A stretch of DNA of 64,000 bases from Pseudomonas putida (GTDB lineage Bacteria > Pseudomonadota > Gammaproteobacteria > Pseudomonadales > Pseudomonadaceae). Where the stretch lies: assembly GCF_026625125.1 (NCBI RefSeq), contig NZ_CP113097.1, forward strand, positions 3,100,001-3,164,000, in the 5' to 3' direction. Below are positions 32,061 through 32,914 of this stretch, in pieces; position 1 is the first letter of the stretch, and each line of letters opens with the position of its first letter. The position numbers and the translations under genes are program-made. The notes beneath the pieces are model-generated. The model saw only the letters and a program-made list of their open reading frames with translations, was not told where the DNA came from and did no database searches.

Positions 32061-32186
32061 CCAAGCCCAAGCCCAAGCCCTGCCCCTGCCCCTGCTCTTG
32101 CTCTTGCTCTTGCTCTTGCTCTTGCTCTTGCTCTTGCTCTTGCTCTTGCTCTTGCTCTTGCTCTTGCTCTTGCTCTTGCTCTTGAT
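32061..32186. repeat. Hexamer microsatellite CTTGCT, left of the palindrome
   Basis: About 21 units in strict 6-base register: three CCAAGC, two CCTGCC, one CCTGCT, then fourteen perfect CTTGCT (32097-32180) and CTTGAT. Translated on the minus strand it gives Glu-Gln repeats in a spurious ORF. It lies between the palindrome and the cobW riboswitch. Confidence 0.95.
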
Positions 32187-32211
32187 TTTCTAGCGCGCAA
32201 GTGCAGGCACC

Positions 32212-32823
32212 GCAGATTGCGACTTCAGGAGGCCGAGCGCAGGTCTTGCGGAGGGAGGTGACGGGCATGGATGCCCGTCAAGCGCTTCGGCCCATGGATG
32301 GGCCGTGAGCGCGGTCCTCCCGGGAGCAAGGCCGGAGCGAGGGAACCCCGAAGCGCAGCGTAGGGGCCGGATGATAGGAGCCAGCCTTTTTTGGTTACTT
32401 TTTGGGGCGTTTGCCAAAAAGTGACCCGCCGTAAGGGCGGAAAGGTGAGTGAGCGTCGCCATAGCAAATGGATATGCCCAGATGAATCAAAACCCCAGCA
32501 TGAGCTTGTGGCTTGTGGCTTGCGGCTTGCGGCTTGCGGCTTGCGGCTTTCAGCTAGCGTGAATATCCATTTGCCGGGGCGGCGCTGAATCACCTTTCCG
32601 CCCTTACGGCGGGTCCCTTTTTGTCTTGGCAAAAAGGAACCAAAAAACCGCCCGCTCCCATCATCCGGCCCCTACGCTTCGCTTCGGGGTTCCCTCACTC
32701 CGGCCTTGCTCCCGGGAAGACCGCGCTCACGGCCCATCCATGGGCCGAAGCGCTTGACGGGCATCCATGCCCGTCACCTCCCTCCGCAAGACCTCCGTTC
32801 GGCCTCCTGAAGTCGCAATCTGC
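32212..32823. repeat. Long imperfect palindrome, arms about 265 bp
   Basis: The left arm (32212-32477) and right arm (32561-32823) are reverse complements with scattered mismatches and a few small indels; I estimate about 90 percent identity by eye. Both arms contain nested short palindromes (GACGGGCAT/ATGCCCGTC and CGGCCCAT/ATGGGCCG). Near the inner ends lie a TTTTTGGTT/GCCAAAAAG-type stretch and CCCGCCGTAAGGGCGG. The 83-bp apex holds the heptamer repeat. No transposase or credible ORF is inside; short ORFs here are artefacts of the repeat. Confidence 0.92.
32504..32549. repeat. Heptamer microsatellite GCTTGYG at the palindrome apex
   Basis: Six contiguous seven-base units, two GCTTGTG then four GCTTGCG, plus a partial unit, in the spacer between the palindrome arms. 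Confidence 0.95.
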
Positions 32824-32872
32824 AGCGTCTGATCTATCGCGCACTGAAAAGCAAAGGCAAGAGCAAAAGCAA

Positions 32873-32914
32873 GGCAACGGCAACGGCAACGGCAACGGCA
32901 ACGGCAACGGCAAC
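32873..32914. repeat. Hexamer microsatellite GGCAAC, right of the palindrome
   Basis: Seven perfect GGCAAC units preceded by degenerate relatives (GGCAAGAGCAAAAGCAA). About 70 bases before the plus-strand cobalamin riboswitch. Confidence 0.95.

Follow-up and report, generated by a model that had tools for sequence, protein, structure and literature searches.

The palindrome that separates two divergent cobalamin-controlled genes in Pseudomonas putida is, in the reading that we favour with moderate confidence, one copy of an interspersed, non-autonomous chromosomal repeat of Pseudomonas, homogenised by recombination and subject to slippage at its ends. Comparison between genomes establishes that copies lie at many intergenic sites, that they have a conserved fold, that the tandem arrays at their ends are absent from empty sites, that sites are common to several species, and that copies within one genome are more alike. 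From these patterns we infer the mechanism and the function of the repeat. "The window" denotes the whole stretch analysed, 64,000 nucleotides in length.

Geometry and setting of the palindrome

The palindrome is made up of two sets of inverted repeats, 32193–32403 with 32632–32842 (211 nt, 90% complementary) and 32415–32475 with 32563–32623 (61 nt, 89% complementary). These delimit a left arm (32193–32475, forward strand) and an inverted right arm (32563–32842, reverse strand) of about 280 bp each, an apex of 87 nt (32476–32562) and a total span of 650 bp. A preliminary description had given 265 bp for the arms, 83 bp for the apex and 610 bp overall; the palindrome is real and measures slightly larger. 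Below, the outer end of a window arm is termed E1 and its inner end E2, and the left arm is one structured unit with E1 outward and E2 at the apex. Folding of the single DNA strand 32185–32850 gave −342.7 kcal/mol, far below the mean of 20 shuffles (−136.2, sd 4.9); the left arm by itself folds at −139.9 kcal/mol (z −4.7).

The palindrome is intergenic and lies between cobW-type and cbtA-type genes, which are divergent. The two B12 riboswitches described at its sides are both matched by RF00174 (gathering score 31.5), on opposite strands and outside the element, at 31794–32003 on the reverse strand (109.2 bits) and at 32976–33200 on the forward strand (99.1 bits). Because other copies occupy other sites (48 palindromes in 25 site groups, see below), the B12 setting looks incidental.

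Distribution of the arm

Within its own genome the left arm matches five places at three loci: besides the window palindrome, these are another palindrome around 1.855 Mb, in which the matching arm shows 98% identity, and a lone arm around 2.491 Mb. By eye, each of the three loci has hexamers past the outer end of the arm and, past its inner end, a heptamer-like stretch. Of 36 genomes searched in the genus, the own one among them, 34 gave arm-like matches, as did one of 21 others, with at most 13 candidates scored in each of these 57 genomes. At a strict threshold, with at most two candidates scored per genome, at least 47 of 398 genus genomes match, and eight genomes in which all candidates were scored hold 5 to 25 matches each. 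The arm search proposed in the preliminary description thus returned array-bearing copies in the own and in other genomes, and its reservation that the arms might be found only here can be set aside.

Among the matches listed (80 of at least 120 stretches), 79 are titled Pseudomonas, among them P. reidholzensis, P. peradeniyensis, P. mosselii, P. soli and P. putida W15Oct28, and one is a Stenotrophomonas MAG. Many of these matches come to within about 100 bases of where their stretch ends, and some are near contig ends (e.g. L185, L240, L243), as expected if repeats break assemblies. The arm-bearing stretch from P. reidholzensis (L188) also carries six tRNA genes in a row and a ROSE-type thermoregulator (1281–2012 and 5150–5217).

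Carriage by plasmids or phages was considered and rejected: one weak partial match, covering 9% of the query, was obtained in 72,556 plasmid records, the arm is absent from 50,697 phage records, and viral contigs gave no exact pattern match.

The arm is the unit

The 107 palindromes collected, some of them duplicates present under two names, fall into two orders. In 52 of them E1 faces outward, as in the window, while 55 are inside out, with E2 outward. Among labelled genomes both orders occur only in G238, where two palindromes stand in tandem (L072). The existence of both orders implies that the arm, and not the palindrome, is the unit, and two units in inverted order make a palindrome. It was also considered whether the repeat might be autonomous, with a gene of its own lying between the arms. 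The eight palindrome middles inspected held REPs, one IS110-type transposase gene and unrelated reading frames (the type of the insertion sequence in the L045 middle was judged by likeness to an IS110 Pfam match), no autonomous relative was found among them, and the idea was rejected.

Insertion sequences split four palindromes of one genome (L286–L289 in G406) within the T-rich hairpin, in its loop (positions 217–235 of the arm). For two representative genes, one of each insertion type, the Pfam matches are to the leucine-zipper and integrase-core models of IS481 and to the models of IS110. This shows that the T-rich hairpin attracts or tolerates insertions and says nothing on how the repeat itself moves. 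In G015, the end sequence of the same IS481-type element adjoins an arm hairpin by eye (L046, about 1990–2030), which suggests that the arm hairpin is a recurrent landing site. A C4 antisense RNA and its a1/b1 targets adjoin an inside-out palindrome in G010 (L044, 2381–2579).

Tandem arrays at the unit ends

All three arrays described earlier at the tip and the feet of the window palindrome are present. The left foot (32057–32184), at the E1 end of the left arm, consists of degenerate hexamers followed by 14 exact copies of CTTGCT, and Tandem Repeats Finder reports TGCTCT ×15.3 with 100% matches at 32093–32184. In the apex, GCTTGCG is repeated 6.6 times with 97% matches (32504–32549). The right foot (32851–32918; GCAACG ×11.5, 90% matches) starts with hexamers of the AAAAGC/AAGAGC type and ends in seven exact copies of GGCAAC; counts of exact runs thus agree with those first given. 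At its start the right-foot array is a degenerate, reverse-complemented version of the array at the left foot, so that the feet are partly one inverted array. The arrays vary within the species: in G236, a same-species genome, CTTGCT has 6 exact copies as against 14 in the window and GGCAAC 4 as against 7, and the array in the apex differs in length as well. Slippage during replication of a hairpin, as proposed in the preliminary description, is plausible in view of this variation of all three arrays, and would be the mechanism that we infer.

For a survey across palindromes, an array was called when a tandem array of at least 18 bases lay within 100 bp outside a foot, or in the apex. Intervals shorter than 40 bases were excluded (101 of 104 and 105 of 110 were used), and duplicate palindromes present under two names were kept in these counts. 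E1-out palindromes carry foot arrays in 84 of 101 intervals, 80 of them of period 6, and apex arrays in 36 of 52, of which 25 have period 7; arrays occur at all three places in 27 of the 52. Control intervals contained one array in 191 (0 of 97 at 500–600 bp out, 1 of 94 at 800–900 bp). Inside-out palindromes have an array next to the inner E1 in 28 of 110 intervals, with period 6 in 26 of the 28, and outside E2 in 35 of 105 (period 6 in 17, 7 in 7, 8 in 7, 5 in 3 and 4 in 1), against 0 of 89 and 0 of 87 in the controls.

The arrays at E1 are nearly all hexamers of a few related units (AAGAGC, AAGATC, AACGGC, AAAAGC), and those at E2 are of mixed period and unit in both orders. Since hexamers adjoin E1 even where E1 is the inner end, the type of array tracks the end of the unit and not the tip or foot of the hairpin. 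The original picture, in which simple repeats mark a hairpin's tip and its two feet, is in view of the 55 inside-out palindromes supported only in part. Arrays are found at 25–33% of positions in the inside-out order, as against 69–83% in the E1-out order, and hairpin geometry may contribute to their occurrence besides the unit end.

The two loci followed across species, cobW–cbtA and rlmM–tusA, allow filled and empty sites to be compared. An array is present at 10 of 13 filled sites and at 0 of 22 empty ones (loci without both anchors, 8 of 30 at rlmM–tusA and 17 of 30 at cobW–cbtA, are not counted). The possibility that the arrays were targets that predate the element was rejected on this ground. 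The other suggestion of the preliminary description, an element that carries its own repeats, is borne out by these empty sites and by the arrays of the other copies.

Conserved fold and the TwoAYGGAY motif

For the fold, 61 of 78 non-redundant arms were picked by eye and aligned, the 17 omitted being mostly divergent or without AYGGAY hairpins. The consensus comprises 46 pairs, 31 of which are changed on both sides. In the 61 arms, 97.9% of 2803 cells pair, compared with 87.1% in shuffles, and 253 cells are changed on both sides, compared with 47.4 (sd 8.8) in shuffles and 12–55 in slid versions; the slid control favours the fold, which was derived from the same alignment, and the shuffle control is free of that bias and ignores relatedness. 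The window arms differ at 30 of 279 aligned positions, yet each keeps 46 of 46 pairs, two of them changed on both sides. In the left unit the conserved fold extends over 32226–32440 (forward strand; consensus helices 1–10).

Among the non-Watson-Crick cells, G-U outnumbers A-C by 84 to 21, and by 43 to 11 without the two dominant pairs, the sequences being related and the cells not independent events. This excess suggests that the folded molecule would be a single strand, read from E1 to E2, and is harder to account for by template switching alone.

The fold of the unit is multibranched, with a closing stem around two AYGGAY-type hairpins, followed by a T-rich hairpin and a GC-rich hairpin. 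In the left arm the latter two occupy 32394–32425 and 32426–32440 (forward strand) and form the core kept most widely across copies. The TwoAYGGAY motif (RF01731) sits within the consensus fold, in the middle of this larger unit. Both window arms exceed its gathering score of 43, the left at 32257–32316 on the forward strand (45.6 bits, model positions 47–111 of 168) and the right at 32718–32779 on the reverse strand (47.2 bits, positions 46–112). All five arms of the own genome do so too, and there the matches cover these parts of the model and not the whole. Full-length matches occur in G576, G504, G443, G564 and others.

Class-wide, RF01731 matches 13 of 185 genomes, 11 of them over the cut-off, and none of 14 control genomes; these counts are lower bounds, candidates having been partly scored in some genomes. 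In seven genomes, 62 of the 143 matches scored form inverted pairs less than 600 bp apart: 22 of 30 in G504, 12 of 16 in G576, 26 of 35 in G015 and 2 of 15 in G010, with no inverted pairs in G443 (14 matches), G564 (6) and G427 (27). Of these 31 pairs, 29 are in the inside-out order. In several distant copies a T-rich hairpin, and then CTCGC or a similar motif, can be seen by eye downstream. Judged by these matches, there are TwoAYGGAY-bearing relatives of the unit in some other gammaproteobacteria.

The RF02221 (sRNA-Xcc1) covariance model did not match the arms, and kinship with that RNA was rejected, together with an integron/attC reading that had rested solely on it. The sole RF02221 match in the own genome lies elsewhere (G000:C1:1335130–1335212, 71.2 bits), and G015 and G024 have one each.

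In the interval 31700–33400 no sigma-70-type promoter was found. Terminator-like sites number 5 there, where 2.3 (sd 1.7) are expected, and such sites lie at matching places in the two arms: at 32441–32425 on the reverse strand, opposite the hairpin pair of the left arm, and at 32597–32613 on the forward strand, where a GC hairpin precedes a T run in the right arm. Neighbouring genes are convergent at 17 and divergent at 6 of 80 sites under looser thresholds, at which 31 sites are uncallable (under strict thresholds 45 of the 80 are unclear). The window copy is among the rarer divergent cases, so that termination does not explain its place.

Sites and history of the copies

Of 30 rlmM–tusA loci, 14 match the arm, 14 are without one, and the remaining two run into an array where their contig ends. 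At cobW–cbtA, 5 of 30 loci have an arm match near cbtA. In the ten empty cobW–cbtA sites 4 to 169 bp separate the anchors, as against 831 bp in the filled locus of the same species. Inspection by eye of the cobW and rlmM sites, where arrays blur the ends, showed no target duplication. Internally deleted remnants, of the kind that unstable palindromes leave, occupy the same sites in L110, L122 and L139.

After removal of four E1-out rows as duplicates (the duplicate status of L221 being presumed), the remaining 48 E1-out palindromes fall by their flanks into 25 site groups: 30 of the palindromes belong to seven shared groups, and each of the other 18 has a site to itself. Mean arm likeness is 0.952 for the same genome at different sites (n = 44), 0.918 for the same site in different species (n = 61) and 0.889 where both differ (n = 1018), values that are uncorrected for species relatedness. 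The two arms within one palindrome have a mean likeness of 0.894 (n = 48), and two same-genome pairs of arms are poorly alike (0.867 and 0.851). A tree groups the arms largely by genome. By eye, apex units tend to be common to the sites within a genome (e.g. G184, G166), and foot units tend to be common to species at one site, as with GCCGTT at the left foot of rlmM in G112, G166 and G184, with exceptions such as G389. The simplest account of this pattern would be that copies persist at their sites while their arms and apex undergo conversion, and its main rival is re-insertion at favoured sites.

Origin and maintenance of the repeat

On the reading that we favour, copies would persist for long at their sites and gene conversion between them would keep them alike. 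Conversion would probably begin at the extruded hairpin, at breaks such as those from SbcCD-type cleavage or at stalls, would span arms and apex, and would mostly end at the feet. The arrays would expand from short A/G-rich seeds at the unit ends, through slippage in replication or repair. As the fold is strand-biased, one strand, either RNA or single-stranded DNA, may be or may have been recognised by something.

A similar likeness of copies within a genome would also arise if copies were inserted again and again at favoured sites. This is what is expected of a mobile element resembling REPINs at ten times their scale, an inverted pair moved as single-stranded DNA by a transposase acting in trans, the likeness within genomes then reflecting recent turnover at favoured intergenic sites. 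Such an element would explain the inverted doublets of hairpin-bearing units together with singlets such as that near 2.491 Mb, the near-identical copies at many sites, the existence of empty sites and a strand-biased fold, as expected if one DNA strand is recognised; in the accessible text of Bertels and Rainey (2011, PMC3116915) REPIN doublets form hairpins and are associated with RAYT. We regard it as rather unlikely, however, as the eight middles inspected held no autonomous partner, the cobW and rlmM sites had no target duplication by eye, and the repeat is nearly absent from plasmids (one record in 72,556) and absent from phages.

The strong covariation and the preference for G-U over A-C would equally follow if the unit were a functional RNA, either a small RNA or a terminator or insulator at transcript ends, with the fold kept by selection on RNA and the palindrome being two units back to back. 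The classification of TwoAYGGAY as cis-regulatory in Rfam, the terminator-like hairpins at matching places in both arms and the excess of convergent over divergent neighbours at callable sites agree with this. Against it, the transcribed sRNA-Xcc1 model finds no match in the arms, the genes next to the repeat vary with its 25 site groups, the genes on either side of the window copy are divergent, so that a terminator there would serve no evident purpose, and no sigma-70-type promoter was found in the interval around it; this explanation we consider improbable. That there is no element at all, and that a chance or decayed palindrome forms a hairpin that causes local slippage, would fit the occupation of tip and feet by quickly varying arrays, but is hardly credible, being refuted by the further copies, which share the arms, the fold and the places of the arrays, and by the inside-out order in other species.

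If the repeat is as we propose, a little-known RNA motif from the catalogue belongs to a dispersed palindromic repeat that occurs in several gammaproteobacterial families and whose fold has strong covariation behind it. It would be a concrete object for the old question of why large interspersed palindromes, although expected to be unstable, are kept in bacterial genomes. It would also be a natural setting where microsatellites form at fixed places, so that slippage and the repair of hairpin breaks can be traced across species and strains. A bolder proposal can be offered only tentatively: TwoAYGGAY might mark a large, unrecognised class of gammaproteobacterial repeats, paired inverted units recognised as single strands and spread or rewritten as whole palindromes. 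In Pseudomonas each round of cutting and repair synthesis would scar these palindromes with end-specific microsatellites, and the arrays could then be read as a clock of how active the element has been.

Relation to known elements

TwoAYGGAY is listed among candidate RNAs by Weinberg et al. (2010, PMC2864571). Both window arms score above the cut-off of this family, but here the motif forms only the central part of a unit that has a closing stem and two more hairpins besides, and belongs to a dispersed repeat often found in inverted pairs; the accessible text of that paper does not mention a repeat. The statement of the preliminary description that no named element has this layout is doubtful, as catalogued repeats fit in size, by description only. 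Ppu-1 of P. putida (617 bp) has 39 copies, 28 of them complete, is intergenic and has a predicted common secondary structure with an RNAz value of 0.97 (Petrillo et al., 2008; PMC2267715). Compared by description and not by sequence, it resembles the window palindrome, of about 650 bp, intergenic and structured; unlike the latter, it is not said to carry arrays in the part of the paper available. The intergenic repeats of P. fluorescens include R26 (352 bp), R200 (320 bp) and R178 (101 bp), of which R178 has internal inverted repeats of 11 bp and R26 and R200 are listed without inverted repeats in the accessible portion of the source (Silby et al., 2009; PMC2718517). R26 and R200 are, by description, dispersed, intergenic and about as long as one arm, and the available account of the P. 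fluorescens repeats reports an excess of tail-repeat-tail neighbours, as among the callable sites here. The repeat may overlap with catalogued Ppu-1, R26 or R200, judged by size and description.

With REP, REPIN and BIME sequences, as covered in the accessible text of Bertels and Rainey (2011), the repeat has in common inverted, hairpin-forming, extragenic doublets and higher-order clusters such as the tandem palindromes of G238 (L072). It differs in its arms of about 280 nt with several helices, where REPs measure tens of bp, and in the arrays at its ends. BoxC and PIT triplex repeats (Holder et al., 2015, PMC4666352, in the part available) are likewise a dispersed intergenic palindromic motif tied to local genetic instability, but are short and have a triplex basis.

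Literature searches for the arm sequences as printed text (fragments of 14–16 letters) returned nothing, in a coverage outside which most subscription papers lie, and combinations of P. putida with palindrome and microsatellite, or of hexanucleotide with tandem and inverted repeat, gave nothing fitting. In the literature searched, accessible in part, nothing was found that connects TwoAYGGAY with a palindromic repeat or that describes the extended fold, the end-specific arrays or concerted evolution of the copies.

Elsewhere in the window, a separate set of imperfect repeats of period 24 lies at 17166–17627, in a probable coding region, with units rich in Ser, Asn and Ala codons.
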